Virus record (IMG/VR): IMGVR_UViG_3300030382_001470
Span: 1 to 35,820 of that record
DNA from: a virus
DNA: 35,820 nucleotides
Reading direction: 5' to 3' (one strand)
How positions within the stretch are numbered: position 1 is the stretch's first letter; each line of letters begins with the position of its first letter. The position numbers and the translations under genes were made by a program. The notes beneath the pieces were generated by a model, which saw only the letters and a program-made list of their open reading frames with translations, searched no databases and was not told the origin of the DNA. Shown piece after piece: positions 4,119 through 25,645 of the stretch.

Positions 4119-4383
4119 AGAAATTTCAATAGCCATGAACATTGATGGCTTTTACGATTTGTTACCAACAACAGGCTTTCATTCTCTGGATTCAAGTCAA
4201 AAGATTGATTCATTGATGGAAGTAGAAACATTAGAGATTGCAGAAAGGTTTCAAGAGCTTTGGAACAAAACGGATACAAAGAGTGGCGTTGATTTCTTGA
4301 TGCGGATACATGCAATGGAGTACCCTTTAAATTACAGGATTGAAGGTCCCCTACTAAAGAAATTTTTAAAGTCTTATGGCTAA
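4111..4383 (+). CDS. small acidic hypothetical protein
   Basis: 90 residues, not recognised. It overlaps its neighbours by 8 nt on each side, so the three frames are likely read from one message by coupled starts; a clear ribosome binding site is missing. The protein appears compact and helical, with an acidic centre (about residues 33-50) and a hydrophobic, basic end. No motif was found. The minus-strand frame over the same stretch is a shadow. Confidence 0.55.
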   Translation: MSEEISIAMNIDGFYDLLPTTGFHSLDSSQKIDSLMEVETLEIAERFQELWNKTDTKSGVDFLMRIHAMEYPLNYRIEGPLLKKFLKSYG

Positions 4384-7300: not shown

Positions 7301-7681
7301 ACACTTGTTAATAAATTACCAAATATAAAAGGATCATCGAAAGCCATTTTACCAGCACTAGGCATTGGTAGCTTATTAGTTGCACCAGCAATTGCCGAAG
7401 CAGCATTATGGGGTAGAAATCCAACTTGGTTTGACAGAGGTAAACAGTATTTAAGAGAATTTCTTGGCAATACAAAAGTTGCTAGTGGGATTGATGAAGA
7501 ACCAGGATATTTGAATACTTTAGGAATCTTTGGTGATTATGATCCTAAGAAACTACGAGAATTCGGTCGTAGGCGCAAATCTGGATTAACTGGTAAAGGG
7601 AACGCATCTATTATTAATCTTCTTAAACCTTCTACTCGGAATGATTTTGCTGATAGAGGAAGAAGAACTAGGAGGAATTGA
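4376..7681 (+). CDS. very large hypothetical protein between the two terminase genes
   Basis: 1101 residues, not recognised. The N-terminal 270 residues are mixed alpha/beta and basic. The middle (about 330-700) is polar, low in Cys, with Gln/Thr/Asp-rich linkers. A Pro-rich hinge (PPEKPPER) at about 842-849 precedes a compact stretch at about 852-900 starting with Gly-Asp-Val-Val-Arg-Tyr, reminiscent of an SH3-like beta barrel. One hydrophobic segment at about 987-1012 could be a membrane helix, and the tail is Arg-rich. Size and lack of enzymatic motifs fit a virion or ejected protein; a toxin or other effector is possible. The start overlaps the upstream stop by 8 nt and lacks a strong ribosome binding site. 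Confidence 0.75.
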   Translation: MAKKRRGQTERNVEKRYIEVAGDWELSDHDLVEKIKENFLNVATAKENQGKIWITRGTGMGKDGKLFTEGSKNLQHTGGRKDFAGYVESSNKVKAAHHKWVDKGKVTKEPPTNLAQTEKLHLIKPRTSVGSIISHAARDYNKQIYQKALSEGLPAKAAEARKNAQGIRILAVTTGKFSSEGRSWQEKVDLREAYIKGIGAKQKAFFTRSGTLESKPEQMAREMYDRVAAYVKEQGLVKKTSLTKTRDFFIDAVNAKKFKNPEMAKEFKAGARQFLINKELDIHYKGDSSKPYLTRDALEAIKGWHPGSLITSASQTIPNYAQLPGQTETTYTGNTLVNAVTRQEGPDLPENVKLGKGDQAVHVDRMTERYLSSHFAEQLDEQGQVIQKFENPNVEENVTTWMDELGDEAETTMKKTKTYSTRGGTWSWESPTQATIWKDYPGQIYWSEQVDTGLTPSQWVNTLDVAETPKTALTTNLLAAQQHAYGMQSPHSVTTDALKEFVKPKAEFDVVSGEKIAAVAPSVDTDQHLDRTNLLMQQDMENISDVAKQGFKQGGKTLLTAFDAGKVGQSVAEDSPIKPISEIRTQVMEIPGTLSVTAVPDQSEGTFQPTFEERQQMAKFKEDTQANREAWDRQVARKIQEYEDRGRKPYVAPKPVKGQTIAHLGKGDKKSTLINSLAELAAKRKGGDMSNYMGEGDLGIPGATTSNTAPITEADIAPTVSKKDVQNPRTKIANLLINSPDSEMPEDYGKFFRSQAEAIDQRESASPRKPYMQQRQELIDSGEVPPDYFDEKYMGKNERGQTEIQRYDQSRALEKWRYETGLTDWRGNVIKGTDFGLKKPPEKPPERKIPQFKSGDVVRYTNKEGESYSMTVSKGEHIHGINIVYHKAAKGWASSEVSTGRRMFTGGTRKDVIAKTQKFLSDPKEATNALKVIKEVRAKNAKAGIGPAAETIELFKSRITGAYDTKTNVRKKAVKTLVNKLPNIKGSSKAILPALGIGSLLVAPAIAEAALWGRNPTWFDRGKQYLREFLGNTKVASGIDEEPGYLNTLGIFGDYDPKKLREFGRRRKSGLTGKGNASIINLLKPSTRNDFADRGRRTRRN

Positions 7682-7682
7682 T

Positions 7683-9077
7683 ATGTCAAAACGAAAACAA
7701 AAAAAATTAGCAAGATTATTGGACCTTACCAGGCATAAGCCAGGTGATGAGAAAAAAGAAGGTCAGGTAGCTGCTGCATTTGTTCAAGAGGATCTGCTAC
7801 CACAAACTAAAACAGTAGTAAAGAAAGAGGAAGCACCTAATCTTGTCAAGCCAAATAAAAGAGTTACTAATAATGACCAGAAGACAATTCTAACTCGTGG
7901 ATCTACTGGAGAAGGTGCATTTAAGTCACGAGAAGAATTTTGGGGTGGATTTGATACACGATGGCGACAAAGTAGAGAATTAGTAGCTGCAAGAGATACT
8001 CCTGATCCTAAAATAAAAACAGAGAAAAAATGGGGTGGAGAATTAATTACAACGTTAGACTTAGATAATCCTCCAATTGATCAGATTAGTGGAAAACCAA
8101 TACCTGGTCGGTATGAAACTGATCACCCTGTTCCTCAATCTATAATAAAAAGAAGAACTACTCATCCAGTTGGAGCAAATAAATGGCCTAAATGGGTACT
8201 TGATAAACATGGTCCAAGCATTACCATGAAACAAGCACGGAATATTAAAAATGAAAGGCGTGTACTTCAAACTACTTCACCTGAAAGTAACCAGCTTAAA
8301 TCAAATAAGGGGTTAATGGATTATGACTCAGAATTTGGTTGGGGTAATAAGGATAACCCATTGAATTATAAGCCGAAAGTACAAGCACAAAGATATCATG
8401 ATGCTTTAAAGTATGCAGCGGAGGAGACTGGTAAGCACATGATGACTAGAGAAGAGGGCTATAAATATATTCAAATGACTGGTAAACAGCCTACAGTTCC
8501 AGGTTGGGATAATCCTGAATTCAGTCCTCCTGCATACTTTCCTCCTACAGTTGGCAAAGATGCACCAAAAGAACTTATATCTCGTTCTGCTTCTATCATA
8601 ACAAAACAAAAATTAGTTTCGACTGAGAGTAATGTATTAGAAGCATCAGATCAAAGTAGTACTAAGCCAAAGTCAACTAACCAGCCTAAAATAGCAGCTG
8701 CACCTTCAACTGCAAAATCTCTGGAAAATAAGTCTGACTATGAATATTCAGCAAAAAAGCAATGGCGCAGAAAAGTAGGTACTAAAACATGGGAGAAAGT
8801 TCCACCAGTTAAGAAAAAGACAGATATAAAGAAAACGACTACTGGTGAATATGAGTTCTCAAAAAAAGGACAATGGCGTAGAAAAATAGGAACAAAAAAT
8901 TGGGAAAAAGTACCCAAAAAAAATAAACCTGTATCTGCGTTAAAAAAAATGTTCCCTGGTATTAATGCACCTATACTTGTAAAAAATGATAAAGGAGTTC
9001 TAGTTACTGAACGAGTTAAAACGACAGAAGAGAATCGTAAAAAGAAAATAAAAATTGATGAAGAAGATATATGGTGA
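7683..9077 (+). CDS. hypothetical protein with possible HNH-like region and two C-terminal repeats
   Basis: 464 residues from the ATG at 7683, chosen because AGGAGG sits seven bases before it; the frame itself is open from 7641. Residues 147-148 are Asp-His followed by Pro-x-P-x-S, and about 55 residues later comes N-Q-L-K-S-N-K-G (203-210). This resembles the D-H ... N ... N/K layout of HNH nucleases, though the usual Cys or second His is not evident. The C-terminal part has two 22-residue repeats (353-374 and 390-411) with 17 identical positions, each with a Q-W-R-R-K core, followed by a Lys-rich tail. HNH proteins next to the large terminase assist packaging in some phages. The nuclease call is tentative. 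Confidence 0.6.
   Translation: MSKRKQKKLARLLDLTRHKPGDEKKEGQVAAAFVQEDLLPQTKTVVKKEEAPNLVKPNKRVTNNDQKTILTRGSTGEGAFKSREEFWGGFDTRWRQSRELVAARDTPDPKIKTEKKWGGELITTLDLDNPPIDQISGKPIPGRYETDHPVPQSIIKRRTTHPVGANKWPKWVLDKHGPSITMKQARNIKNERRVLQTTSPESNQLKSNKGLMDYDSEFGWGNKDNPLNYKPKVQAQRYHDALKYAAEETGKHMMTREEGYKYIQMTGKQPTVPGWDNPEFSPPAYFPPTVGKDAPKELISRSASIITKQKLVSTESNVLEASDQSSTKPKSTNQPKIAAAPSTAKSLENKSDYEYSAKKQWRRKVGTKTWEKVPPVKKKTDIKKTTTGEYEFSKKGQWRRKIGTKNWEKVPKKNKPVSALKKMFPGINAPILVKNDKGVLVTERVKTTEENRKKKIKIDEEDIW
8739..8915 (+). repeat. two in-frame copies of a 22-codon repeat
   Basis: Copies at 8739-8804 and 8850-8915 encode Y-E-[YF]-S ... Q-W-R-R-K-[VI]-G-T-K-x-W-E-K-V-P. They are 111 nt apart and share 17 of 22 residues. 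The Trp/Arg/Lys core suggests a small binding unit, perhaps for DNA or peptidoglycan. The DNA has drifted at third positions, so the duplication is not recent. Confidence 0.8.
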
Positions 9078-11169: not shown

Positions 11170-12201
11170 ATGGGACTATTTGGAAGTGGAGGAGGAACAT
11201 TAGGTTTAGGTGGTACAAAATATGATCCTACTACATATGGTGGTACTACTGGCGATATAACAGGAGGACTACAAGATGCTGGTGAAACAATAACAGAAGG
11301 AGCAAAAGGTTTTTGGGATGAGGCAGGGAATTGGGTAGCAAATCTCTATGATGATGCAGGGATTTTTATAGGAGAAATGGGGCAAGGTGACTGGACTGGA
11401 TGGACAGATCACGGCAAGATGGTTGCAGAAATGCAGGGTTTTGCAGATCCATCTCTAGTACCAGATTGGTTAAAAGATATGTGGGGTAAGGGGGAACAGG
11501 CATTTTATGAAGGAATGGATACAGGATCGGAGGTTTTAGGAGATAAACTTGGTGATGATCCAGTTGGAGACATAAAAGATGCTACAGGAGATGCCGAAGA
11601 TAAGATTAATGAAAATATTGCTGATATAAATGAGGATATTGAAACAGGTATTGATGAAAATACTGATACTCTCAATCAGATGGAAGACACAGTCAATAGT
11701 AATGTTGCAGATGCTAATGTAGCTCTCGACAATTTAAACGCTGTTGTTAATGATACAAGCACTATAATAAATCAAGGTCTTGATGCATCTATTAATACTA
11801 ACAATCCTAATGCTTTAATTACGAATCCTCAAGGCTGGTATGATTCAAATATTGAGGGGTTGCGACAAGGACCAGGTAAAGTTTGGTATGATTGGGCAAC
11901 AGGAAAAGATGAAGATGCCATCATAGATCATGCTGCAACAAATATAGGTAATCTATTTCTAGATTATGGTGAGGATTTAGGTAATATGTTTGGGGGCCTT
12001 ATAGATCATGCCTTTGATTGGAGTGATGATGGAGCAAGTGACGAATTAAGAAATAGAAAACGCCCGACTAATGCTGGAGATCCATTTGGTCTTGAAGGTA
12101 CATCACGAAGATTAGTTGAAACACAAGATACTTTCCAATCAAGACAGAATAGAAAGGCGCAAATAGCTCCTTCTATGATAAACAAGGGTAATTACGCATA
12201 G
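11170..12201 (+). CDS. Gly-rich, acidic hypothetical protein with central coiled coil
   Basis: 343 residues, not recognised. AAGGAG precedes the ATG. Residues 1-60 are Gly/Thr-rich like the start of the preceding protein. Residues about 145-200 form an acidic helical run with repeated Asn/Asp-Ile units typical of a trimeric coiled coil. The C-terminus is Arg/Gln-rich. The organisation, flexible Gly-rich head plus coiled coil, fits a virion appendage or internal protein. It lies directly upstream of the portal. Confidence 0.7.
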   Translation: MGLFGSGGGTLGLGGTKYDPTTYGGTTGDITGGLQDAGETITEGAKGFWDEAGNWVANLYDDAGIFIGEMGQGDWTGWTDHGKMVAEMQGFADPSLVPDWLKDMWGKGEQAFYEGMDTGSEVLGDKLGDDPVGDIKDATGDAEDKINENIADINEDIETGIDENTDTLNQMEDTVNSNVADANVALDNLNAVVNDTSTIINQGLDASINTNNPNALITNPQGWYDSNIEGLRQGPGKVWYDWATGKDEDAIIDHAATNIGNLFLDYGEDLGNMFGGLIDHAFDWSDDGASDELRNRKRPTNAGDPFGLEGTSRRLVETQDTFQSRQNRKAQIAPSMINKGNYA

Positions 12202-12209
12202 GTAAAATT

Positions 12210-13871
12210 ATGGCACAATATGGGGAGAAAGATCCTTTAGGTTCTAGGATTGACAAACACTACGAATATTTAAAAGGTAAGCGTACTACCTGGGAACGCC
12301 ATTGGCAGGAACTTGCCGAATATGTATTACCTCATAGATCAGACTTTACTTCAAAACGTTCACTAGGTGAAGAACGCTTAGAGATGGCATTTGAAGGTAC
12401 AGCAATGAGAGCATTAAAACGTTTTGCATCACAAATACATAATGTATTTACACCTATGGGTGCTGAATGGTTTAAACTTACAACTGGAGTTACAGAAGTT
12501 GATAAACAAAGAGATGTCCAACTATGGTTAGAAAATGCTACAAAAATTGTTAAACATCATATATCACGCCCATCCTCTAATTTCCACAGCGCAGTATATC
12601 AGTACTACCTCGAAGCGGGTGCTTTTGGGACTGGTATCATTTTTGTTGAAGATATTCCTGGTCTTGGTCCTCGTTACCGCAACTTCCCTCTTTCTGATTG
12701 TGTATTGGCTGCTGGAGGTGAAATGGAAATTGACACGATCTACAGACTCTACAAACAAACTGCAAAGGATTTAGTAAGTCGGTATCCTGCAGAGAGTCTT
12801 CCAGAAGATATACTTAAAAAAGGCTTTGGGGATAAGATGCTGGAAGATGAAGATGTAGTGCATTTAGTAACACCATCATGGACTTTAATGGAGTTCCTAC
12901 CTGAAAAATGGGAAAAACCATATGTTGCAATTACTTATTTAAAAGATAAGAAACATGTAATTCAGGTTGGTGGATATGATGAGATGCCATATATCTGTGC
13001 AAGATGGGAGAGATCAGATAGAGAAATTTATGGCAGAGGTCCAGCATGGGAAGTATTACCTGATATGCGTTTAATGAATGAAGTTGAGAAGGTATATCTA
13101 AAAGGTGTACAAAAAGCTATTGCACCTCCTATGTTTGTTCCAGATTCAGGACTCCTTGATCCACTTGATACAACACCTGATGCAATTAACTATTACAATG
13201 TAGGTATAGGTGGTAAAGATATGATATTTCCAGTACCCAATGCTGGTAAGGTTGAATATGCAATGGATTTAAGTGCTAAACTTACAGGCTCTATAAAAGA
13301 AGGATTTTTTCTTGATGTCCTGGAATTACCTGGTCCAACTGCACCAGATGGAGATGTAATGAGATTTTCTGCAACCGAAGTATCAGTCCGTATGAGACAG
13401 AGAATGCCTGTACTTGGGCCACTTTTAGCTCGTCAGGAGAATGAATTTCTTGATCCTCTTATCAGAAGAACAGTAAATATACTAATGCGATCAATGATGC
13501 TTGGTCCTTTACCGCCTGTATTAGAACAAATTGGCTACAGGATAGAATATTTGAATCCAATATCTATTTCATTGAGGAGTGGAGAAGTAAATTCAATGGT
13601 ACAATTATTTGAAATGATAATGCCTCTGGCACAAATAGATCAAACTATTCCAATGTATTTTGATACTCAAAAAATATTAAAGAATACAGCTGAAGTCCTG
13701 CAAGTACCTCCTTCTAACTTGAGATCAGAAGAAGAAGTACAGGAGATTATTAAGAGACAACAGCAACAACAGCAAATGCAGATGGAACAACAACAAGCAC
13801 AAGTGATGGCACAAGTAGATGAAAGTCAGGCTAATGCTGAAGCAAAAAGGTCACAAGCTAGGGCAGCATGA
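12210..13871 (+). CDS. portal (head-tail connector) protein, T7 gp8-like
   Basis: 553 residues, close to T7 gp8 (536). The portal is a dodecameric ring at one head vertex through which DNA enters and leaves and on which the tail is built. The N-terminal pattern W-x-x-H-W-Q-E-L-A-E-Y-V-L-P and then S-Q-I-H-N-V-F-T-P-M-G-A-E-W-F at about residues 28-92 is typical of this podovirus connector family. The C-terminal end (from about 514) is a Gln-rich coil, also usual. It overlaps the next gene as ATGA and is followed by scaffold and capsid genes. Confidence 0.93.
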   Translation: MAQYGEKDPLGSRIDKHYEYLKGKRTTWERHWQELAEYVLPHRSDFTSKRSLGEERLEMAFEGTAMRALKRFASQIHNVFTPMGAEWFKLTTGVTEVDKQRDVQLWLENATKIVKHHISRPSSNFHSAVYQYYLEAGAFGTGIIFVEDIPGLGPRYRNFPLSDCVLAAGGEMEIDTIYRLYKQTAKDLVSRYPAESLPEDILKKGFGDKMLEDEDVVHLVTPSWTLMEFLPEKWEKPYVAITYLKDKKHVIQVGGYDEMPYICARWERSDREIYGRGPAWEVLPDMRLMNEVEKVYLKGVQKAIAPPMFVPDSGLLDPLDTTPDAINYYNVGIGGKDMIFPVPNAGKVEYAMDLSAKLTGSIKEGFFLDVLELPGPTAPDGDVMRFSATEVSVRMRQRMPVLGPLLARQENEFLDPLIRRTVNILMRSMMLGPLPPVLEQIGYRIEYLNPISISLRSGEVNSMVQLFEMIMPLAQIDQTIPMYFDTQKILKNTAEVLQVPPSNLRSEEEVQEIIKRQQQQQQMQMEQQQAQVMAQVDESQANAEAKRSQARAA

Positions 13872-14137
13872 ACTTCCCTTTCGCTGAGAGGAAAATAGAA
13901 GCAGAATTATTTAGGAATGTATTTGGTAGTGAAGAAGGAAAAGAACTTCTTGCAATACTTGCTAAAAATTTTCATGTTTATAAGACAGTACAAACTCCTG
14001 ATCCTTATATCTCCGCCTATCAAGAAGGTCAAAGATCAGTTGTTATTAAAATGATGGAGATAATAAATACAGATCTGGATGCTGTAAAAAGGCGTATGGA
14101 TCAAATTGAAACTGAACGAATTAAAAGGAGACAATAA
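13868..14137 (+). CDS. Bbp19-like phage protein
   Basis: 89 residues. The stretch N-V-F-G-S-E-E-G-K-E-L-L at about 17-28, followed by D-P-Y-x-x-A-Y-x-E-G-Q-R-S-V at about 45-58, matches the conserved layout of the small Bbp19-type phage proteins, which usually lie among portal and capsid genes. Their biochemical role is not established to my knowledge; a head-assembly accessory is the usual guess. It is coupled to the portal gene (ATGA) and to the scaffold gene (TAATG). The C-terminus is a charged helix. Confidence 0.7.
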   Translation: MNFPFAERKIEAELFRNVFGSEEGKELLAILAKNFHVYKTVQTPDPYISAYQEGQRSVVIKMMEIINTDLDAVKRRMDQIETERIKRRQ

Positions 14138-14976
14138 TGGAAGAAATGACTACTGAAGCTACCCCTGATGAGTCAGGACAAGTTGCTTCTGGATCAGGTG
14201 TTGGGACACCCGAATCATCTCACTTTGATAGAATGCAATTCGATCCAACATCTTTGCCTGAAGGTTTAAGGAATGAACCTAGTCTTCAGACATTTACATC
14301 TGTAGATAACTTAGCTAAATCCTATGTTAATGCAGTTAAGAAAATTGGTGGAAACCCTGACCATCTTGTACAGTTACCACAAGAAGGAGAATCGAGGGAC
14401 AATTTCTACAACAAGATCGGTAGACCAGAAACACCAGAAGGTTACGATTTTGGTGAGGATGACGGTAGATTAGACTTTTATCGTAATGCAACTCACCAAC
14501 TCGGTCTTACTCAAGATCAAGCGGCAAATATGCTAAAGCTATATGCTTCTGTCGAAGAAGAGCAATCCAAAGCAGCTGACAAGCAAAATGCAGATTTTGC
14601 AGTTAACAGTCAGATCAATCTCAAAAGAGAATGGGGAACTAACTACGACAGTAATATTGATATGGCTCAACGTGCATTTGCACAATTTGCATCACCTGAA
14701 TTTAGTAAATTAATGGATGAAACTGGTTTAGGTAATCATCCTGAATTACTAAAAGCGTTCTCTAAAGTAGGACAAATGTTAGGTGATGACCAATTAGTAG
14801 TTGGATCTGGTATTGGAGGACAAGCACAAAGTCCACAAATGGCAAAGGAGGAGATTGAGAGTCTTTATCAAGATAAAGAATTCTCCAAGTCATATTTGGA
14901 CAAGACTGATGTCAACCATAAAGCAGCATCCAATAAAATGGATAAGTTGTTTAGAACAGCTTACCCTGGTAGATAA
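14137..14976 (+). CDS. scaffolding (capsid assembly) protein, T7 gp9-like
   Basis: 279 residues, near T7 gp9 (307). Scaffold proteins guide the coat into a prohead and then leave. The N-terminal third is acidic and Ser/Gly/Glu-rich. A P-E-G-Y-D-F-G segment near residue 105 and an L-K-R-E-W-G-T-N-Y-D segment near residue 166 are typical of podovirus scaffold proteins, as is the helical Gln/Ala-rich C-terminal half. It lies between portal and major capsid. GGAG sits seven bases before the start, inside the end of the previous gene. Confidence 0.87.
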   Translation: MEEMTTEATPDESGQVASGSGVGTPESSHFDRMQFDPTSLPEGLRNEPSLQTFTSVDNLAKSYVNAVKKIGGNPDHLVQLPQEGESRDNFYNKIGRPETPEGYDFGEDDGRLDFYRNATHQLGLTQDQAANMLKLYASVEEEQSKAADKQNADFAVNSQINLKREWGTNYDSNIDMAQRAFAQFASPEFSKLMDETGLGNHPELLKAFSKVGQMLGDDQLVVGSGIGGQAQSPQMAKEEIESLYQDKEFSKSYLDKTDVNHKAASNKMDKLFRTAYPGR

Positions 14977-15094
14977 ATTAAGCCAAATAAGAGATTTAGA
15001 AGAAGATAATCTAATGACCTTCCAATAAATTATCTGCGACCCATTTGGATAATCGCTAGGCTATTGAACCTTTTTTAACCTTATAGGAAACAAT

Positions 15095-16111
15095 ATGCCA
15101 ACATTTAGTGATATCGAAACCAGTTATGTCCAGCGCTATGCGCAGGATGTACAGCATATGTTGCAGCAGAAGACCACTAGATTAAGGAATCTTGTAAGCC
15201 AGAAACTTGATTGTTCTGGTATTGCAGAATTCATTGATCGCATTGGTGGTGTTACTGCCGAAAACAAAAATGCTCGTTTCGCAGATTCTCCTGTTCAAGC
15301 CATCGCTCATCAGCGCAGGAGAGTGACAGCACGACCTTACCATGCAGGGTTTTTTGTGGAAGGATTTGATCAGCGTCGTATGAATTACGATGTTTTTCAG
15401 CCTTATGCAGAAGCAACTAGTATGGCTATGGCTCGTAAAATGGATGAGATCATCGTTGATGCTGCTTTTGGTACTGCATATCAGTCTGAAAGTGGAGCAA
15501 TGGATGGAGCAACGCCTGTTTTATGGGATACTTCGAGTACCGAAACAACTCTCTCTGGTAAAACTATCGGAGATCAGTTTATTGGTGTTCAGTTTGCCTA
15601 TGGCTCATCACCCGCAGCTGAGACAAAAGGTATGTCAAACGCTGGAGGTGACTATACTCTGTCTGTTGACAAACTTCTTCGTGCAAGGAGAATTCTTGCT
15701 CAGAACGAAGCGGATCAATACGATGAGGGTGGGAATCCGTTATATGTATGTGTATGCTCACAAGCTCAGATTGAAGCTCTGCTTCATGCTCAAGCTATAC
15801 AGAGTATAGACTACAATAACATTCGTGCATTAGTGGAAGGTGAAACAAACTTCTTTGCAGGATTCCAATTCATCAAGTATGAGAGTCTTCCTACATTTAC
15901 ATCTGGAATGCAAAACAGTGATACAGGCGAAAAAGTTCTTGCCTTTCATCCTGCAGGGCTTTCCTTATGTGTGTGGATGGACCCAATTACTAAAATCGAA
16001 CCCCGAGCAGATAAAAGTTTTACTCCGTATGCATATTTTGAAATGGATATGGGTGCAACTAGAATCTGGGAGGAAATGGTTGTTCAAATTGATTGCCTCA
16101 AAATGTCCTAA
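15095..16111 (+). CDS. major capsid protein
   Basis: 338 residues, the length expected for a podovirus coat (T7 gp10A is about 345). It forms the icosahedral head. Support: position straight after the scaffold, a Gln-rich helical start, a mixed alpha/beta body with HK97-type composition, and an aromatic region R-P-Y-H-A-G-F-F-V-E-G-F at about 87-98. Codon choice and GC content are somewhat higher than in neighbouring genes, fitting strong expression. AGGAAACAAT precedes the ATG. The 118-nt gap before it holds two GATAATC copies and a T-run but no clear promoter. Confidence 0.9.
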   Translation: MPTFSDIETSYVQRYAQDVQHMLQQKTTRLRNLVSQKLDCSGIAEFIDRIGGVTAENKNARFADSPVQAIAHQRRRVTARPYHAGFFVEGFDQRRMNYDVFQPYAEATSMAMARKMDEIIVDAAFGTAYQSESGAMDGATPVLWDTSSTETTLSGKTIGDQFIGVQFAYGSSPAAETKGMSNAGGDYTLSVDKLLRARRILAQNEADQYDEGGNPLYVCVCSQAQIEALLHAQAIQSIDYNNIRALVEGETNFFAGFQFIKYESLPTFTSGMQNSDTGEKVLAFHPAGLSLCVWMDPITKIEPRADKSFTPYAYFEMDMGATRIWEEMVVQIDCLKMS

Positions 16112-16116
16112 TTATT

Positions 16117-16150
16117 AGGTTGAGTCCTTTCAGATGAACGCTTAACTTTT
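16117..16150 (+). terminator. weak intrinsic terminator after the capsid gene
   Basis: AGGTTGAG (16117-16124) pairs with CTTAACTT (16141-16148), 8 bp with two G-U, followed by a short T-run. In T7 a partial terminator (T-phi) sits directly after the capsid gene, so the place is suggestive. The loop carries TCCTTT, complementary to the AAGGA of the next ribosome binding site (from 16161). Confidence 0.35.
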
Positions 16151-16171
16151 AATTAATAATAAGGAGTTAAT

Positions 16172-16645
16172 ATGGCAAATGTATATGGAACCCTACAGAC
16201 TAATATAAATTCTGTACCTATGAAAATGGGCGATGCTCATTCAATGGGTGGCAGAATGCGTGTTTTGTCTGATTCCTATGTTATTCCTGCTGCTGGTTCA
16301 GTAGCCATAGGTGATGTACTCACCATTGGTGAACTTCCAAAAGGAGCAAGAGTATGGGAAGCTCATTTGGGTGTTAGTGCCTCTACAGGTACGGCAAAAT
16401 TAGAACTAGGTACAATAGTTACAACATCAGCTGGTGTTACTACTACTGACGTTGATGCACTTTTAGGTGATGTTGTTCACTCTTCCGACTTTAATCGTAG
16501 TATTCAAAGCGGACAGACAGCAACAACAGCTAGTGTAGTGCCATTGTCGTATCCTGACGGAGCAACTATTATAGTTACAAATAGTGTCGCAAAGTGGACA
16601 TCAGGCGTAACTATAACCTGTACGATTAAGTATACAATCGACTAA
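16172..16645 (+). CDS. head decoration-like structural protein
   Basis: 157 residues. The protein is beta-rich, with Thr/Val/Gly strands and almost no charge clusters. It contains I-G-D-V-L-T-I-G-E-L-P-K-G-A-R-V at about residues 49-64, a pattern seen in small phage structural proteins coded next to the coat gene. It most likely decorates the capsid or belongs to the head-tail joint. It is preceded by AAGGAG and followed by the strong stem-loop at 16651-16737. Assignment is by pattern and neighbours. Confidence 0.6.
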   Translation: MANVYGTLQTNINSVPMKMGDAHSMGGRMRVLSDSYVIPAAGSVAIGDVLTIGELPKGARVWEAHLGVSASTGTAKLELGTIVTTSAGVTTTDVDALLGDVVHSSDFNRSIQSGQTATTASVVPLSYPDGATIIVTNSVAKWTSGVTITCTIKYTID

Positions 16646-16650
16646 CCATA

Positions 16651-16737
16651 ATGCGGTTAATAGTATTTATTAGCTCTGCCCCATATTCTAGTACGGTCTA
16701 GGCGACGGATGGCATACAACGATGCTGTTAACCGCAT
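16651..16737 (+). promoter_or_regulatory. 17-bp intergenic RNA stem-loop upstream of tail tube A
   Basis: Bases 16651-16667 pair with 16721-16737 as 17 consecutive base pairs, 14 Watson-Crick and 3 G-U. The 53-nt loop can fold further: TGCC (16677-16680) with GGCA (16711-16714), and CTAG/CTAG around TACGGT (16688-16701). It fills most of the gap after the decoration-like gene and has no U-tract, so it is not an intrinsic terminator. An RNase III-type processing site or translation control element is more likely. Its arms share TGCGGTTnnTA and TGCTG...ACCGCA with the leader stem at 2878-2916. Confidence 0.65.
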
Positions 16738-16753
16738 AACATAAAAGGAAATT

Positions 16754-17386
16754 ATGAATAGAGTTAGTATTGCGAATTTAGCATTATCTAATCTTGGTGA
16801 AGGACCAATTCAGACTTTAACAGATGATAATGCCAGGGCAAGGATATGTAATGCAAGAATAGATGATGTAATTCGTACTATATTACGGATGCATGATTGG
16901 AACTCTGCAATGAAAAGAGTTGCATTGACTAAATCCAATGATCCTTTATTTGGATGGAACTCTACGTTCCAGTTACCAGCAGATTATATAAAAGTTATAG
17001 AAGTATGGCCTGTATCAAAATTCAGGGTACAAGGTGCTGAGATACTTTCAAATGAAGATACATTAAATTTATTGTATATCTATGAACCATCAGATATAAA
17101 CTCACTTGATGTCCTGCTTGCAGAAGCAATGGCACTTAAACTTGCAGTTGAGGTTTCAGAAACTCTAACTGGTAAAGACGGATTAAAAGACCGAATGATG
17201 CAAAAATTTATAATGGGGTTACAAGAAGCTAGGTCTGCTAATTCCAAAGATAAGACACCAGAACACAGGGAAGATTCTACATTCTGGAATGCTAGGCGTA
17301 GAGAAACTACACCAGTACATAGAACATTTAACTACCCAAAAACAGGTAACGCAGTAGCTAATAACTTTACACCTCCAGCGTCATAA
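16754..17386 (+). CDS. tail tubular protein A, T7 gp11-like
   Basis: 210 residues (T7 gp11 is 196). It forms the ring under the portal that joins head and tail. The start N-R-V-S-I-A-N-L-A-L-S-N-L-G-E-G at residues 2-17 and the W-x-x-A-x-K-R-V-A-L pattern at about 49-58 are family hallmarks, as is A-E-A-M-A-L-K-L-A-V near residue 125. AAGGAAATT precedes the ATG. The stop overlaps the next start as TAATG. Confidence 0.92.
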   Translation: MNRVSIANLALSNLGEGPIQTLTDDNARARICNARIDDVIRTILRMHDWNSAMKRVALTKSNDPLFGWNSTFQLPADYIKVIEVWPVSKFRVQGAEILSNEDTLNLLYIYEPSDINSLDVLLAEAMALKLAVEVSETLTGKDGLKDRMMQKFIMGLQEARSANSKDKTPEHREDSTFWNARRRETTPVHRTFNYPKTGNAVANNFTPPAS

Positions 17387-20300
17387 TGCCGACATTTGAG
17401 TTTCAGCAATCTAGGTTTACTGAAGGAGTACTCGCTAAAAGTCTTCATGGGCGTTCTCCTGAAGAGTTTTACTCTTATGGGGTAGATTCAGCCGAAAACA
17501 TGATTCCTTTGATTGAGGGTCCAATGGTGAAGCGACCAGGCACACTCTATGTAGCAGACGCGAAATCGACTCGCTCTAAGCTGATTCCTTTTTATAAAGG
17601 TGGGACTGAGGCTTATGTTATTGAAATAGGCTATGACGAAGATGCTACTGATGATACTTTTGATTGTACATTTAATGGAACAAATACTGTTACTGCATCA
17701 GCTATAAATGTAGCTAAAATAAGTATTGGTCAGCATTTATGGCAAAGTGAAGATGCAGATATGATGACAACATCTACAGCATATCCATCATCTGATACAA
17801 GTGCGACTGTTGTTTCAATAGATTCAACAACTGAATTTACAATTTCGGAAACTGCTATAGGTACTGGAACTAAAGAATGTACATTCAGCAATAAACCTTA
17901 TATCAGGATATTCTCCCAAGATAAACTACTGGAATTTGGAGGGGCTTCAACTGATCCATATATCATAAAATCACATAGATGGTTTACATATACACATCCA
18001 AGTGACTCTACAAAAAACATTGACGAAATAGCATCTTTATCTTGGACACAAAGTGGTGATGTGTTGTTCTTCACATGTCCTACTAGAAAACCATTCCTCT
18101 TAGTAAGAACAATTGATTCAACTGCCTCATTAGTTAGAGCAGAAGACAATTCAGTATGGACAGTAGCAGATTATGTCCAAGAAGACGGCCCTTATGAAAA
18201 TGTTAATGCTGATCCTGATAAGTCTTTCGTTGCACTAAATTCAGTTAATACTTCATTGGAAGTTGATGATGAAATAGCCTTTTGTCAGTTTGATGTTGTC
18301 AATAATGTAATTATACTTGCAAATCATGGTATGCAAGTTGGTCAAAAGATAAATTTACATTGTGCAACTGCTACAAGTAATACTCAGATTATAATAAAGG
18401 ATGGTACTGTTGATCCTGCTGATGGTGGTGATGTATGTTTAGGTGGTTACTATCCTGCTTATCATACTTCTAATTCTAATATTGGTACTTCTGCGACAGG
18501 AACACATGTTGCAAATAATTATTTTTATGTAGTATATGCAACCTCAGTTTCATTCCAAGTATCTGATAAACCAAATGGTGCTGCATTTGATATTGGATAC
18601 ATAAATAAAGATGCTGCTTCTACTCCTACACCTGGTAATCAGTTTACAGGTGAGATAATGGTTAACAGGAGAATTTACGAAAGAGAATCAGTTATTAGTG
18701 TAGATTCTAAATATAGATATGGTACAAATCCTGATACATGGGCTACAACTATTTCTGCTGGTCCATTATCTATTAGTTGTACTACTCAAAGTACTACTAC
18801 AGTATTAGTACCTGGATCTACAACAGGAATGCTAGTAGGACAAGTCGTATCTGGTGTAGGTATCCCTACTGGTGCAACAGTTGAATCAATCGTAACTAAT
18901 ACCTCTTTTGTTTTATCAAGTGCTGCTACTGCAAGTGCAACAGTAACATTATCCTTTGTTGGAAATGGATATGGAGGACATTATTTTACATCTGATGATA
19001 TAGGCAGATTAATTAGATTAAATCCTATTGCAGATACTACAACTAGAAGAGGTGGTATTAGATGGGCATGGGGTAATATTAAATCATTAACTAGCGAATC
19101 GAGAGTAACAGTTACATTATCGACAGACTTATCAGTATATGCAGATGATGGATACAATAGTACAACTGGTGCGGGTTCAAGTGAGTGGAGATTAGGCGCA
19201 TTTAATGGGTTTTGGGACTATACTAGTTTAACTTCAGGTATGGATGCATTTACTGGTAATGGATATCCAAGACAATCGCAGATATACCAACAAAGATTAG
19301 TATTTGCTGCAACATCATTTGAACCTTCTACAGTTTGGTTATCTCGATCAGGTAACTTCTATAATTTTGCACCAACTGAATTAGGTGTCCAGGATTCACC
19401 CTTAGTTTTGACATCAGGAGTAACAACAGAAGTTATTAGTGCAACCAATGGATTATATTTTACTATAGATTCTGACACTCTTGATGAAATACTTTGGCTG
19501 CTGGATTCTAAACGATTAGCACTTGGAACTTCTGCTGGTGTATATTTTTTATATGGTTCAGAAACAAATCTTACTGTAACTCCTACTAGATTTACCATTA
19601 ACAGAGAAACATCATATTCTGCAACAGATGTTGAACCTGTAATTGTATCAAATGTTATTATTTATCCCCAAAGAGGAGGTAGAGAAATACAGGAGCTAGA
19701 ATTCTCTGGTTCAGAAGATCAATGGTTACAAACTCGTATTTCAATGAAAGCCTATGATCTAATTTCTGAAAGTAATATAACTAAATTAGCATGGCAGGAA
19801 AGACCTAATCCTATTATTTGGATGATAATGGATAATGGGAAGGTATTGTCATTAAGTTATGATAGAGCAGTTAAATTCAAAGCATGGGCAGTACATACTA
19901 TTGGAGGAACTGATACTGTAGTTAATGATATAGCAATTATTCCTAAAAGTGATTTTGACCAGGTATGGTTTCAGGTTAGTAGAACTATTAATGGAAGTAC
20001 AAAACGTTATATTGAAAGATTAAGTAGATTCCCTTCAGAAAATGTTACTACACGAAACGAATTAGTATTCTTGGATTCTGCAAAGATACATACATCTTCT
20101 GATCAAGTAACTGGAACACCTTTAGTTAATGGAGCTAGTCAAACTGGAACTGCTCTTACTGTAGATGGAGCTACATCTGTTCCTGCTGTTGGTACAAGAT
20201 TTGTAATAATGAAAGCTGATGGTACAGCAAGTACAGATACAACAATTTATGAAATAGCAGCTTCTCCATCAAGTACAACAACCTCTTGGAAACTTAACCA

Positions 20301-20808
20301 GGCATTAGTATCTGCTCCTGCAGATAATGCAGTTATTGAGTTAAGATTAGAAGACTTGACAGTTGCACATTTGGAAGGAGAATCAGTAGGATTATGTACA
20401 AATGGGATGGAACATGCTAATAAAACAGTTGCTAGTAATATTCTTTCACTTGATCATCAATTAGCAACTACTGCAGTTTCTGGAATGTTTTATGATGCTT
20501 CAATGACAACTTTAAATCCACCAGCATTGGATAACCAGTATAATTGGAATAAAAGATTATTAACTTTAACAGCATTGATACAAGACAGTCTTGGAATCAG
20601 GCTTGAATATAATGAGTTAACAGAAGAATTATTGTTTAGATCAACTCAACAAAATACTGGTGAACCTATACCATTATTTTCAGGATTCAGAAAACAATCT
20701 TTATCAGGTATAGGCTGGACTGTACATAATGTAAAAATTAATAGTATTAGCCCATTACCTATGCAAATTAACGGATTATCTATTGAACTAGAGACAGGCG
20801 GACCATGA
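17386..20808 (+). CDS. tail tubular protein B (nozzle), T7 gp12-like, enlarged
   Basis: 1140 residues, longer than T7 gp12 (794). It builds the tail nozzle at the end of the tube. Family features: F-T-E-G-V-L at about 9-14, R-P-G-T-L-Y-V in the first 60 residues, and later W-L-S-R-S-G-N-F-Y-N-F and P-Q-R-G-G-R-E-I-Q-E-L near residues 650-770. The extra length comes from inserted beta-rich stretches at about 84-165, about 295-420 and about 469-530. The last is a Thr/Val/Gly module also seen in the tail fibre. The end overlaps the next gene as ATGA. Confidence 0.9.
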   Translation: MPTFEFQQSRFTEGVLAKSLHGRSPEEFYSYGVDSAENMIPLIEGPMVKRPGTLYVADAKSTRSKLIPFYKGGTEAYVIEIGYDEDATDDTFDCTFNGTNTVTASAINVAKISIGQHLWQSEDADMMTTSTAYPSSDTSATVVSIDSTTEFTISETAIGTGTKECTFSNKPYIRIFSQDKLLEFGGASTDPYIIKSHRWFTYTHPSDSTKNIDEIASLSWTQSGDVLFFTCPTRKPFLLVRTIDSTASLVRAEDNSVWTVADYVQEDGPYENVNADPDKSFVALNSVNTSLEVDDEIAFCQFDVVNNVIILANHGMQVGQKINLHCATATSNTQIIIKDGTVDPADGGDVCLGGYYPAYHTSNSNIGTSATGTHVANNYFYVVYATSVSFQVSDKPNGAAFDIGYINKDAASTPTPGNQFTGEIMVNRRIYERESVISVDSKYRYGTNPDTWATTISAGPLSISCTTQSTTTVLVPGSTTGMLVGQVVSGVGIPTGATVESIVTNTSFVLSSAATASATVTLSFVGNGYGGHYFTSDDIGRLIRLNPIADTTTRRGGIRWAWGNIKSLTSESRVTVTLSTDLSVYADDGYNSTTGAGSSEWRLGAFNGFWDYTSLTSGMDAFTGNGYPRQSQIYQQRLVFAATSFEPSTVWLSRSGNFYNFAPTELGVQDSPLVLTSGVTTEVISATNGLYFTIDSDTLDEILWLLDSKRLALGTSAGVYFLYGSETNLTVTPTRFTINRETSYSATDVEPVIVSNVIIYPQRGGREIQELEFSGSEDQWLQTRISMKAYDLISESNITKLAWQERPNPIIWMIMDNGKVLSLSYDRAVKFKAWAVHTIGGTDTVVNDIAIIPKSDFDQVWFQVSRTINGSTKRYIERLSRFPSENVTTRNELVFLDSAKIHTSSDQVTGTPLVNGASQTGTALTVDGATSVPAVGTRFVIMKADGTASTDTTIYEIAASPSSTTTSWKLNQALVSAPADNAVIELRLEDLTVAHLEGESVGLCTNGMEHANKTVASNILSLDHQLATTAVSGMFYDASMTTLNPPALDNQYNWNKRLLTLTALIQDSLGIRLEYNELTEELLFRSTQQNTGEPIPLFSGFRKQSLSGIGWTVHNVKINSISPLPMQINGLSIELETGGP

Positions 20809-21398
20809 GTTATGCAGCAGCAGGACTAGCAATTTTATCCATGTATCAAGGATATATGTCAGCGCAAGCGAATAAGAAAGGCTTGGGCATGAAAGCAGAT
20901 GAATATGATTTAACTGCTGATGAAGCTATTTTAACTCATCATTTTAATACTGATCAACGTAATAGAAGAACTACTTTATTAGCATATCAAACTATGCAAC
21001 AAGGAATGGATGAAGCTGGAGTTTTGGGGCTATCAGGTAAGAAAACTGTAGAAAATATGGTATCAGATATTGGTAGTAGCGGAGCGCAAATAGGTATAGG
21101 AACTACAAATGAAATAGTAATAAATCAACATCTGCAAAATGCAAATACACAATTGAAGGTGATGGAAGATACAGGACAAAAATTAGATAATATACGAGAA
21201 AATGCTATTGCAGTCAACCAAATGGAAGATCACAAAGTAAAAATGCGTGTAAGACAACTTAGACGAGCAGCAGCTACAACTAGATCAGGGGCAGATTCTG
21301 CATTCTTTGCTGGAATGGTAGGAGCATTTACAGCTGGAGGATCTACATATATGACTTCTGGTGGGAAATGGTCAACAGAAGAATTTAAATGGAGTTAA
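20805..21398 (+). CDS. internal virion protein, T7 gp14-like
   Basis: 197 residues, almost exactly the length of T7 gp14 (196). It has the expected make-up: a short hydrophobic N-terminus (residues 3-15), a long Gln/Asn/Ala-rich helical body, and a Gly-rich hydrophobic stretch near residue 165-182. In T7 this protein is ejected first and forms a channel in the outer membrane. Position right after tail tube B and the size support the call; direct sequence motifs are weak. Confidence 0.75.
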   Translation: MSYAAAGLAILSMYQGYMSAQANKKGLGMKADEYDLTADEAILTHHFNTDQRNRRTTLLAYQTMQQGMDEAGVLGLSGKKTVENMVSDIGSSGAQIGIGTTNEIVINQHLQNANTQLKVMEDTGQKLDNIRENAIAVNQMEDHKVKMRVRQLRRAAATTRSGADSAFFAGMVGAFTAGGSTYMTSGGKWSTEEFKWS

Positions 21399-21401
21399 TA
21401 G

Positions 21402-24014
21402 ATGGCTGAGTTACAAACATCTTCATATGCAAGCAAAGCAAAACCATCTCAAGTTTTAGATGTTAAGGCAGTTCAACGAACTACAAAAGATCCCTATGAA
21501 GGAGCAGGGGATACAGCATTCGCTGAAGGGAAAGTATGGGATGCTTTACAAGGATTTACACATGAAGTCCTAGCAAAAGCAGCTTTTCAAATTAATGATC
21601 AGGCAGATCAGGCTGCAGCTGATGATTTTGTAGATGATATTAGAGCGAAGTTTATACAGAATGAAAAATATATTGAAAATGAATTAAGTAAACTTCCATC
21701 ATCAGAAATTAAACCTGATCAAGTATTTAGTGATTTTGAAAAGGGTAATAAAGAAGGATTTGGATATGATAATCCAGAGGAAATGGAGGGTTACGAGAAA
21801 TTAGCTTATAAATATCAGAAACAAGTAAAAGATCAATATCGTGCAGCAAAAGAAGAAACTTCACAAGCAATAATTAGTAAAATGGGACAGTTGTCATCAG
21901 AACATACGATGAGACGACTAAATAAACAGTCTCTTGAAAGTCAAACAGAAATACAAGAAATATTAAATAATAAAGAAAATATTATTGTTACTGTAGAACC
22001 GAAAGATTATGTAAAAGCCTGGAGTAAGCATAAAAACAGTAGAGGTGGAACTAATGATAATAGTTATGAAAATTATATGAAATACGAGTTATCTCAAGGA
22101 AGACTAGGTAATTTAAGAGGACAATTAACAACAGAGGCTAAACCAGAGGATATAGGAGTAGAAGGTGGATTAACTGATACTGCTAAAAGACGTATAGATC
22201 AAATTCTAAATCGGTTTTCAGATAGGGCATTTGATGCTCTTTCAAGAGAAGTTATTACTATGAAGGATGTAGAGGATATGCATAATACATTAATGGGTGG
22301 TGTTCTCAAACAGCATTTTTTAGCTCAGAATCGTGTTGATCCTCATACTGCAATTAAGAAAGCTGAAAAGGGTGATTACAGATATAAAAAGGATTTTACA
22401 GGCTATAGTGGTGAAGGTGAGCAAGTAGATTATATTCTTGATCCTGATTTTACATATGGATATATAGAAAAATACCATGTCAAGATGTCAAAGCCTCCAA
22501 CAGCTGATCCATATGCAATACGTTCAATCCAAGAAAGGATATTTGAAGCTGCTGTTCAAAAGAAACCATTGTCAAGTGACCAAGTGATTTATGATGCACA
22601 GAATCATCCTGGAATGAAAGGAGATCCAAATGCTATAACTCAGTTAGCTTCTTTGGCACACAAATTAAATATTAAAGAGACAGAAGCAGCAGCTGCTAAA
22701 GATGAAGCAGATATTATAAGAAGTATAGGAAGTGAGATTGAAAGTAATCCTGACAATATAGATAAATATTTTATTGAACAAGCTGATGGTACTTGGAAAC
22801 TGAAGCACCCTGAAGACTTAGCAAAGATGATTCCTGATTTAGTAACAGAAAGTCGGAAACTAGAATGGGTATATGGAGATGGTGGATATGAATGGAGAGC
22901 AGATCCAGAGCCAAAAATTACTAAGGGGATACATAGAAAGGGTGTAAGGCTTTTAGAAGATACAGATTTTGCTAATATTATAACAAAATATAGTACTGCT
23001 CAAAGAAAAATTATATCAGATAACTATATTGGTGCGCAGATTAATAGAGTTACACTATCTGAAAAAGGAGCTAGAAATTTTCTTGAGGAGTGGACACATC
23101 CTGATTTTCCAGGTCAATTGGATCGTGAAACAATTGAAAGAAAATTTAATGATCAAAATAGTTACGAAGGACAAATGTTAGCAGTAACATATAGAACACC
23201 TGCAGAAGCACAAGCTGAATTACAAAAAGTAATAAAGGCTGCAAATAAAACATTGAAAAATAAACCAATTAATAAAAGGTGGCTTGCAGGAACTGGTCCA
23301 AACATGAAGGGATTTTGGAATGCATTAAAAGAAAAGCATACAATTGATATAACACATATGAAAAATATTTCTGCAAATGTAAATCCTGCTGATATGGATA
23401 AAGTAACTATAGACTATAATCCTTTGGCTATATTAGAAAATGAAATGAAAGAAAAAAATAACGGAGTAGGATTTAATGATCAACAACTTGAATATTTGGA
23501 TTTTTATAATACAGCACAAGAGAAATTACAAAATATACAATCAGATTTATTAATACATAATTTCAATGAGATAGAAGCATATATTGTTGAGTTAAAAGGT
23601 GTTGCTAAAAATCCTAGTCAGTCAGTTAAATACTTTATGAATGGTGAATTAGCAACTTTAATAGAAGTACAATTATCATTACGCAAAAAAGTATTATCAG
23701 ATCCAACTACAGCATCGGAAGCAATATATTCAGAAATGAGTCAAGGAACTTACTGGATAGATGAATTTCCTTTGTTGGATACTCCAGAAGATAAGAGGGA
23801 GTGGAAGAGAGCGCAATTGATTGCTGAAAGGTTAATGGTTCCTGTCGAAATTGCAGATGGATCTATTCCTACAGGTGGTATAACGAATGCAACAGCACCT
23901 CCAGGGTCAGCAAGAAAATCTCAAGCACAGCTTATAGAAGAAGTAGAAAAAGCACAATCTAATGTAGATAGTAGAATGCATATGCAATTTAATCATCACC
24001 GAGAATCAGAATGA
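21402..24014 (+). CDS. internal virion protein, T7 gp15-like
   Basis: 870 residues (T7 gp15 is 747). The protein is almost entirely helical and polar, rich in Glu, Lys, Gln and Asn, without a membrane segment or enzyme motif. In T7-type particles gp15 forms the periplasmic part of the ejected tunnel. The assignment comes from place in the order (after the gp14-like gene and before the gp16-like genes), size and composition. GGAG lies before the start, and the end overlaps the next frame as ATGA. Confidence 0.65.
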   Translation: MAELQTSSYASKAKPSQVLDVKAVQRTTKDPYEGAGDTAFAEGKVWDALQGFTHEVLAKAAFQINDQADQAAADDFVDDIRAKFIQNEKYIENELSKLPSSEIKPDQVFSDFEKGNKEGFGYDNPEEMEGYEKLAYKYQKQVKDQYRAAKEETSQAIISKMGQLSSEHTMRRLNKQSLESQTEIQEILNNKENIIVTVEPKDYVKAWSKHKNSRGGTNDNSYENYMKYELSQGRLGNLRGQLTTEAKPEDIGVEGGLTDTAKRRIDQILNRFSDRAFDALSREVITMKDVEDMHNTLMGGVLKQHFLAQNRVDPHTAIKKAEKGDYRYKKDFTGYSGEGEQVDYILDPDFTYGYIEKYHVKMSKPPTADPYAIRSIQERIFEAAVQKKPLSSDQVIYDAQNHPGMKGDPNAITQLASLAHKLNIKETEAAAAKDEADIIRSIGSEIESNPDNIDKYFIEQADGTWKLKHPEDLAKMIPDLVTESRKLEWVYGDGGYEWRADPEPKITKGIHRKGVRLLEDTDFANIITKYSTAQRKIISDNYIGAQINRVTLSEKGARNFLEEWTHPDFPGQLDRETIERKFNDQNSYEGQMLAVTYRTPAEAQAELQKVIKAANKTLKNKPINKRWLAGTGPNMKGFWNALKEKHTIDITHMKNISANVNPADMDKVTIDYNPLAILENEMKEKNNGVGFNDQQLEYLDFYNTAQEKLQNIQSDLLIHNFNEIEAYIVELKGVAKNPSQSVKYFMNGELATLIEVQLSLRKKVLSDPTTASEAIYSEMSQGTYWIDEFPLLDTPEDKREWKRAQLIAERLMVPVEIADGSIPTGGITNATAPPGSARKSQAQLIEEVEKAQSNVDSRMHMQFNHHRESE

Positions 24015-25645
24015 GTGATTTACAGGATAGTAAATTAAGTATATTAAAAGCTAGTATGCAGGATTATCATCGTAAAGCATTAGAACGATCTGTTACTAAA
24101 GATGGTTTGCTTGATCCCATTAAATTTCAGGATAAGATAATGGATCTTGTCCATGATGAAAATAGAGAGAATCCTGAATATGAAAGAGGAGGATATTTTT
24201 TATTACCTGATGCATTTGAAAGTAATGCAAATAATGATGCTCGATTACGGATGTTAATGTTAGGTGGTGAAGGAACAAAAGGTACTGTAACTGTTCCTGA
24301 TGCAAAAGAAGATAATGCATTTACGAGAACTGTTGATCAAAAAATTAATCTTGCGATGGAAAACAGTTATCCCACTATATTTAGAGTATATGGTACTCAG
24401 CGTGGAAATGACATGATTGATCAATCAAAGAAATTTTTAAGATATGCTGTATCACAGATAGGTTATACAGGTATGAACCAGTTTAATAAAGCTCTTGAAG
24501 GAGCAACTAAACTATTATGGGGTGGCTATCATTTACAAAAGAATGGTGGATACAGTAATCCTAATGGAATAGGAACAGTATATAAAAAGTCTAAATTAAA
24601 GCAATATGGACTTCTCGATAATATGGATGCTCTTGAAACTAATCAATTTAATACCTGGTATAGAGCCTTTAATGTTCATGGTAAGAAATTAAGATTTTTT
24701 CTTGATCCTGACTTTGTAGGAAGGAATCCTACACTCAATTCATCTACTGTAAGTGCAGTTGTTGATGGAATAATGAAAAATGAGGGGAATATATGGATGG
24801 CAACAATAAATGATCTTACGCATGGTGGATATAGAAATGTATTGGTGGGGCAAAGAGGACCAGCTGGTGCAGATAGAGAAGACGCAATGCATTATATGCA
24901 TTTTAGTGATTTTCAAAGTAATCCGAATGTACAGGTTTTAGCAAATTTGTATGAACAACCTGAAGATCCAAATGCTGAGTGGAAACCATTGAATATATCA
25001 GAAGATGAACAAATGCTTGCATTAGCAGAACCTGAAGCATATAAGCATTTAAATGCCCATATGGACCCATGGGATCAATGGAGTTTCATGTTTAACCAGA
25101 CAAAGAAAGTTGTAAGTATGTTTGGTATTAAAAATCCCTGGCCTATCTCATTACTTCCATATATACCGAGTTCAAATTTCTGGTCTAATACAAAGTTAAT
25201 GATGGAAGACATGGGTCTAATGACACCTGGTTATGATATGAGCAGGAAACGAGTTAAACATTACATAGAAAAATTTGGTCCTGGTTCAGAATTATATGGA
25301 TCAGAAGAACAACAGGGGCTTGCAACTAATCTTTTAGGTTTTGGACATGATTTTAGTAATCCTAAACAAGTTGAAATGGATTTAGTATGGATACCTATTT
25401 GGGATATGATTAAAGAATGGGAAGGAAGACAACGTAGAGAAGGGAAAATGGATGAAGCTCCTGATGCTATTGTTGCATCTTTATTTGAACAAAGGAGACG
25501 CGAAATGTTTAGTGGAAGAGTAGGTACTAAAGAGAAAAGAGTATTTTCAGTTTATGATGCAGTAGAGTTTCGAGGCGGTCAAACACCTCACGAGCAATTT
25601 CCATCAACATATTTTCATTATAATCCACCACCAGGCGAATTTTAA
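24011..25645 (+). CDS. putative internal/ejected virion protein, unrecognised
   Basis: 544 residues, not recognised. It begins inside the stop of the gp15-like gene and ends with TAATG against the next, so it belongs to the ejection cassette. It is globular in look, rich in Asn, Met, Tyr, Trp and Phe, with a Trp/Pro-rich middle (about residues 350-400). I looked for the Glu and Ser/Gly motifs of a lytic transglycosylase, which opens T7 gp16, and did not find them. It may be an additional virion protein specific to this lineage, or it may replace the N-terminal part of gp16. Confidence 0.6.
   Translation: MSDLQDSKLSILKASMQDYHRKALERSVTKDGLLDPIKFQDKIMDLVHDENRENPEYERGGYFLLPDAFESNANNDARLRMLMLGGEGTKGTVTVPDAKEDNAFTRTVDQKINLAMENSYPTIFRVYGTQRGNDMIDQSKKFLRYAVSQIGYTGMNQFNKALEGATKLLWGGYHLQKNGGYSNPNGIGTVYKKSKLKQYGLLDNMDALETNQFNTWYRAFNVHGKKLRFFLDPDFVGRNPTLNSSTVSAVVDGIMKNEGNIWMATINDLTHGGYRNVLVGQRGPAGADREDAMHYMHFSDFQSNPNVQVLANLYEQPEDPNAEWKPLNISEDEQMLALAEPEAYKHLNAHMDPWDQWSFMFNQTKKVVSMFGIKNPWPISLLPYIPSSNFWSNTKLMMEDMGLMTPGYDMSRKRVKHYIEKFGPGSELYGSEEQQGLATNLLGFGHDFSNPKQVEMDLVWIPIWDMIKEWEGRQRREGKMDEAPDAIVASLFEQRRREMFSGRVGTKEKRVFSVYDAVEFRGGQTPHEQFPSTYFHYNPPPGEF

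Follow-up and report, generated by a model that had tools for sequence, protein, structure and literature searches.

A hairpin between the capsid and tail genes

The DNA analyzed here, referred to as the window, is a virus record of 35,820 bases from IMG/VR and belongs to a sea-water phage that carries a hairpin at 16651-16737. From position 2934 on, the plus strand of the window encodes the small terminase, the large terminase, the portal, the capsid and the tail proteins. Judged by the portal and tail tube A, the nearest named relatives are pelagiphages and other podoviruses with about 29-37% protein identity, and a DNA search with the window returned no match among GenBank phages. Two open reading frames between the terminase subunits (4376-7681 and 7641-9077, encoding 1101 and 478 aa, respectively) had no match in Pfam or PHROG at the cut-offs used, and a tRNA search of the window found none. 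An AT-rich region with several overlapping inverted repeats is located between divergent gene blocks at 2452-2552, and its fold was no better than that of shuffled sequences (z = -0.33).

The gene for the major capsid protein (15095-16111, plus strand; PHROG 3437) is followed on the same strand by an open reading frame of the capsid module encoding 157 aa (16172-16645), which shows a weak match to a PHROG virion structural protein (E = 3e-4), and by the gp11-like gene for tail tube A (16754-17386; PHROG 394 tail protein). The 108-nt gap between the latter two (16646-16753) contains no gene, in agreement with the preliminary description of this DNA, and is filled by the hairpin. The 17 consecutive base pairs described earlier between the 5' arm (16651-16667) and the 3' arm (16721-16737) on the plus strand are indeed present if G-U pairs are allowed; they enclose an interior of 53 nt (16668-16720) that is exchangeable between relatives. 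The outer part of the 5' arm, up to a TAG at 16661-16663, is the stem common to the relatives, while no T-run follows the 3' arm in the window. Just 3' of the hairpin, the plus-strand motif AAAGGA (16744-16749), read from the sequence, is the likely ribosome binding site of tail tube A, and a similar purine stretch is also present in the relatives.

The hairpin was assessed by comparing its predicted fold with shuffled sequences. RNAfold gave a free energy of -31.9 kcal/mol (z = -3.6), which was matched by none of 200 shuffles. Among the five listed plus-strand intergenic gaps of at least 20 nt, only the one containing the hairpin folds significantly (z = -3.35), the others having z values of -0.73 to +0.53. 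A script scan of the window for GC-holding stems of at least 10 bp located mostly outside open reading frames of at least 80 aa identified only 16651-16737 and a second site at 2878-2916. The stem had previously been considered far beyond chance, which was overstated: among 60 dinucleotide-shuffled versions of the window, 11 contained a run of 17 or more pairs, with 13 such runs in total, and another 17-pair run is found within a gene at 24196-24274. The case for the hairpin rests on comparative evidence and not on the length of its stem. Likewise, the large loop had been said to fold again, but the 53-nt interior folds no better than its own shuffles (z = 0.11).

The hairpin in related phages

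To obtain related sequences, a protein search with tail tube A was performed, which yielded 19 contigs, 18 of them including the upstream region (L019, in which this region is missing, was left out). A DNA pattern for a simple hairpin retrieved 14 contigs, of which four were new (L055-L058) and carry a simple hairpin directly 5' of tail tube A; three of these four were recovered by an alignment search as L068, L071 and L079. A hairpin precedes tail tube A in 23 of 23 contigs, that is, in the window and each of the 22 related contigs from IMG/VR that include the region. These 23 contigs represent 12 distinct stems and include near-copies (L011 and L012 are identical in gp11, and L013/L079 and L004/L058 are alike at the hairpin). 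L017 was counted as two hairpins, one of which was missed by the script and read by eye. The distance from the hairpin to the start of tail tube A is 14-19 nt in the rows listed.

Three types of hairpin were distinguished. Type A (15 rows) has a stem of 10-12 pairs and a short loop, and this loop is a GNRA tetraloop in 14 of the 15 rows, which points to an element acting at the RNA level. Type B (L008, L010, L015, L018 and the second hairpin of L017) consists of the type A outer stem around an insert of approximately 60 nt, while in type C (the window, L001, L006 and the first hairpin of L017, the one read by eye) 48-61 nt are enclosed by a different outer stem. The type B interior of L008 folds better than its shuffles (z = -2.6); fold values for L001, L006 and L010 were left out because the borders of these hairpins are approximate. 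The type B interior appears almost unaltered at separate places in the gp11 tree. Three changes are needed on this tree to account for type B, compared with an average of 3.7 for shuffled labels, and the tree and an exchange of loops are only consistent with each other.

We next asked whether the stem itself is maintained. Among 11 distinct rows, which we chose to represent the stems, standard pairs occupy 95.9% of 121 cells of the outer stem, a pairing level biased towards structure by the fact that the arms were hand-picked from hairpins and joined by a spacer. Six of the 11 pairs are changed on both sides, and these double changes are free of that bias. The covariation score was 0.661 versus 0.290 and was reached by none of 500 shuffles, and when the partner arm was slid as a control, pairing fell to 31-61%. 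Both compensatory changes (six of 11 pairs) and a hairpin at this place in relatives (23 of 23 contigs), on which the preliminary description had staked its proposal of an RNA-level element ahead of tail tube A, were thus found, and the proposal survived this test. The hairpin at the capsid/tail border is a real RNA stem under selection.

Close relatives of the window revealed an exchange of hairpins. Compared with the window, L010 shows 96.4% identity over 11710-16267 and 94.5% over 16744-22399; between 16268 and the end of the hairpin, the hairpin and the greater part of the 157-aa gene are divergent, with an identical patch of 31 nt at 16622-16652 within this section. The 96 nt immediately upstream of the hairpin are 99% identical between G017 and the window, yet the hairpin of G017 is of type A. 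L017 and L018 hardly differ in the capsid gene or in tail tube A, but L017 has a different allele of the 157-aa gene, accompanied by a type C hairpin that precedes the type B one, the two standing in tandem and meeting at a CATAA junction. These three comparisons demonstrate that hairpins have been swapped both with and without the upstream 157-aa gene. The site is a gene border at which exchanges can be traced closely. In the largely open-access literature on stem-loop cassettes and terminator hairpins in mosaic phages, we found no account of a loop exchange at this position.

The 157-aa gene (16172-16645) is highly polymorphic between otherwise near-identical contigs (L010, L017) and conserved in its last codons; the product of this capsid-module gene resembles a decoration protein that is swapped between phages. 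The type C hairpin of L017 (4809-4896) contains TAGCTATGCCCC, a 12-nt stretch that also occurs in the 3' arm region of the L008 type B hairpin (located before 3441); the type C copy in the window shares only 6 nt. This stretch of L017 is possibly a relic of type B.

Position and putative function of the hairpin

The arrangement resembles that of phage T7, in which gene 10B ends at 24162, the terminator TΦ lies at 24210 and gene 11 starts at 24228; in the window, the upstream gene ends at 16645, the hairpin at 16737, and tail tube A starts at 16754. Both are strong hairpins that directly follow the capsid module, with a distance of 17 nt to tail tube A. However, TΦ has a U-run, while the window hairpin has none and carries a loop of 53 nt. 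T7 also encodes its own RNA polymerase, whereas no match to the profile of T7-type RNA polymerases (PF00940) was found for the window phage, control genomes being equally unmatched.

Fourteen named phages were examined, and 12 of them have a hairpin at the capsid-to-tail junction, the exceptions being Vibrio phage QH and the Manatee Spring record. A clear T-run was seen in T7, HTVC010P, Vibrio 1.182, MD07 and MD-2021a, while five of the 12 hairpins have none (HTVC024P, HTVC100P, HTVC203P, Skadi-4 and Lederberg). The hairpins of Vibrio 1.182 (z = -2.75) and MD07 (z = -1.74) are weaker relative to shuffles, perhaps because these gaps consist mostly of hairpin. In the HTVC010P-type pelagiphages (HTVC010P, HTVC024P, HTVC100P, HTVC203P, Skadi-4, Lederberg, HTVC028P and Baldr), the hairpin is located between the capsid gene, or a small ORF following it, and the tail genes. 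As mentioned for HTVC010P, some of these hairpins have a T-run and others lack it; their sequences are unlike that of the window, and one small ORF often separates the hairpin from tail tube A. Four pelagiphages (L087, 1537-1586; L089, 1539-1586; L096, 7101-7150; L097, 1337-1386) have in common a hairpin without a T-run in which a GAGA tetraloop and an internal loop rich in purines, GCGAGAGTGGAA, are retained although the stems vary.

Terminator-like features differ between the hairpin types. In 18 of 20 type A and B rows, at least four of the eight bases that follow the final G/C of the stem are T, the T-run being absent in the type A rows L003 and L005, and the type A hairpin of L002 fits the terminator consensus, including a GC-rich stem with a short loop. 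The window hairpin has two T in these eight bases, and the three measured type C rows have two to three, none of them showing a T-run. Accordingly, the window hairpin did not match the terminator consensus, having neither a short loop (53 nt) nor a U-run directly 3' of the stem. Intrinsic terminators do not usually have so large a loop, and a terminator function of the type C hairpin in the window is putative. No promoter match was found at 16646-16753 and nothing convincing just before the tail genes; one match at chance level (16544-16572) is located inside a gene. Termination at the hairpin would therefore have to be partial.

We consider it probable, at roughly 60%, that the hairpin is an attenuator in the position of TΦ or a 3' boundary hairpin of the capsid module whose loops can be exchanged; brakes on gene expression of this kind are known, and the hairpin is probably an unusual variety. 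Since no phage polymerase was recognized, the late operon is presumably transcribed by the host RNA polymerase. The hairpin would then form 5 nt past the stop codon of the last capsid-module gene and, as we infer, lower the level of tail mRNA relative to capsid mRNA. Types A and B may cause partial termination or pausing wherever the stem is followed by a U-run, while in the type C hairpin of the window, which has no U-run, shielding of the upstream capsid mRNA from 3' exonucleases would be more likely. The loop would be dispensable for this action, and its exchange between phages would proceed by recombination at short conserved patches on both sides.

The hairpin bears on how phages without a recognized RNA polymerase produce much capsid protein and little tail protein. 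This question arises because no polymerase was recognized here and because the related pelagiphage Skadi-1 is reported to encode no RNA polymerase and to have no terminator that could be found (PMC10504331). The natural variants, which differ in loop and U-run, represent ready constructs for distinguishing termination from mRNA protection.

Alternatively, the hairpin could be a processing or stability signal only, which is cut by an RNase such as RNase III or blocks 3' exonucleases and causes no termination in any type. The stem is indeed kept without a T-run in type C, in L003 and L005, and in the five named pelagiphages, but the type A stems of only 10-12 pairs are short for RNase III, and a T-run maintained in 18 of 20 type A and B rows would be unneeded for processing alone. 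Terminator hairpins have been reported to raise the abundance of upstream mRNA (PMC11696848), which is in line with a stabilizing role. Overall, we regard processing or stability as the sole function as unlikely. Similarly doubtful is an interchangeable RNA cassette in which the conserved outer stem sets the capsid-to-tail ratio and swapped loops, namely the GNRA cap, the folded type B insert or the type C insert, retune this ratio or serve to escape or recruit a host factor.

It is less likely still that the hairpin is a structured regulatory RNA whose loop insert adjusts tail expression by binding another RNA or a factor from the phage or its host. Although the better-than-shuffled fold of the L008 type B interior and its near identity in separate parts of the gp11 tree would fit such a role, the interior in the window folds at chance level and most relatives have a loop of 4 nt. 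Moreover, Rfam gave no match over the curated cut-off for the window and matches at chance level only for the three hairpin types at loose thresholds, and the window hairpin has no antisense match of at least 11 nt within the window.

We consider it very unlikely that the hairpin and its conserved flanks serve mainly as a border for gene exchange. Small stem-loops at module borders, termed promoter/stem-loop cassettes (PeSL), are reportedly found in T4-type phages, where Arbiol et al. are said to have proposed in 2010 that they mediate shuffling. The window hairpin resembles them in being a small stem-loop at a module border, and the divergence of L010 from 16268 through the hairpin, interrupted only by the 31-nt patch, as well as the tandem hairpins of L017 at the CATAA junction, would suit such a linker. 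However, PeSL cassettes reportedly include an early promoter, while none was found in the window gap and the hairpin is fixed in one place; in addition, a linker explains neither the compensatory changes nor the T-runs, and selection on the RNA stem is needed. A chance stem, which the 17-pair runs in 11 of 60 shuffled windows might suggest, is practically negligible given a hairpin with compensatory changes in 23 of 23 contigs.

The hairpin ahead of the small terminase gene

The second site, a plus-strand hairpin with CTCC in its loop (2878-2916), is located in the leader of the small terminase gene, and a plus-strand consensus match to a sigma-70-like promoter (TTGACA-17-AAGAAT) lies ahead of this leader at 2803-2831. 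A CTTGACA promoter-like box was found in 10 of 10 small-terminase leaders and a hairpin before the start codon in nine of them (none was seen in L025). All nine hairpins have CTCC in the loop despite quite different stems, and the leader hairpin is a conserved element of its own.

The preliminary description regarded the hairpins at 16651-16737 and 2878-2916 as one regulatory signal used twice. The letters common to their arms are as quoted there, and the arm match in the window comprises 7 nt (P = 0.008 against shuffled arms, for a match chosen post hoc). However, the arms share only 2-5 nt in the three other genomes holding both sites (G001-G003), and the CTCC loop stands against GNRA or insert loops at gp11, so that the idea of a single signal could not be upheld. 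G003 has a near-copy of the gp11 hairpin of the window but a different terminase hairpin. Kinship of the two hairpins thus appears weak. A 9-nt match between the terminase arm of L027 and the gp11 arm of L006 (P = 0.01) was also found, which would be compatible with a common ancestry of the two within one subgroup.

We considered whether the CTCC loop pairs specifically with the ribosome binding site of the small terminase gene, but rejected this, as the score for own pairs in eight leaders (the near-copy L024 being dropped) was 101 compared with a permutation mean of 97.4 (P = 0.27). In most of the leaders compared (window, 2838-2933; L024 and L026-L032), the CTCC hairpin is preceded by an upstream hairpin with an ACCTTT-like loop motif.
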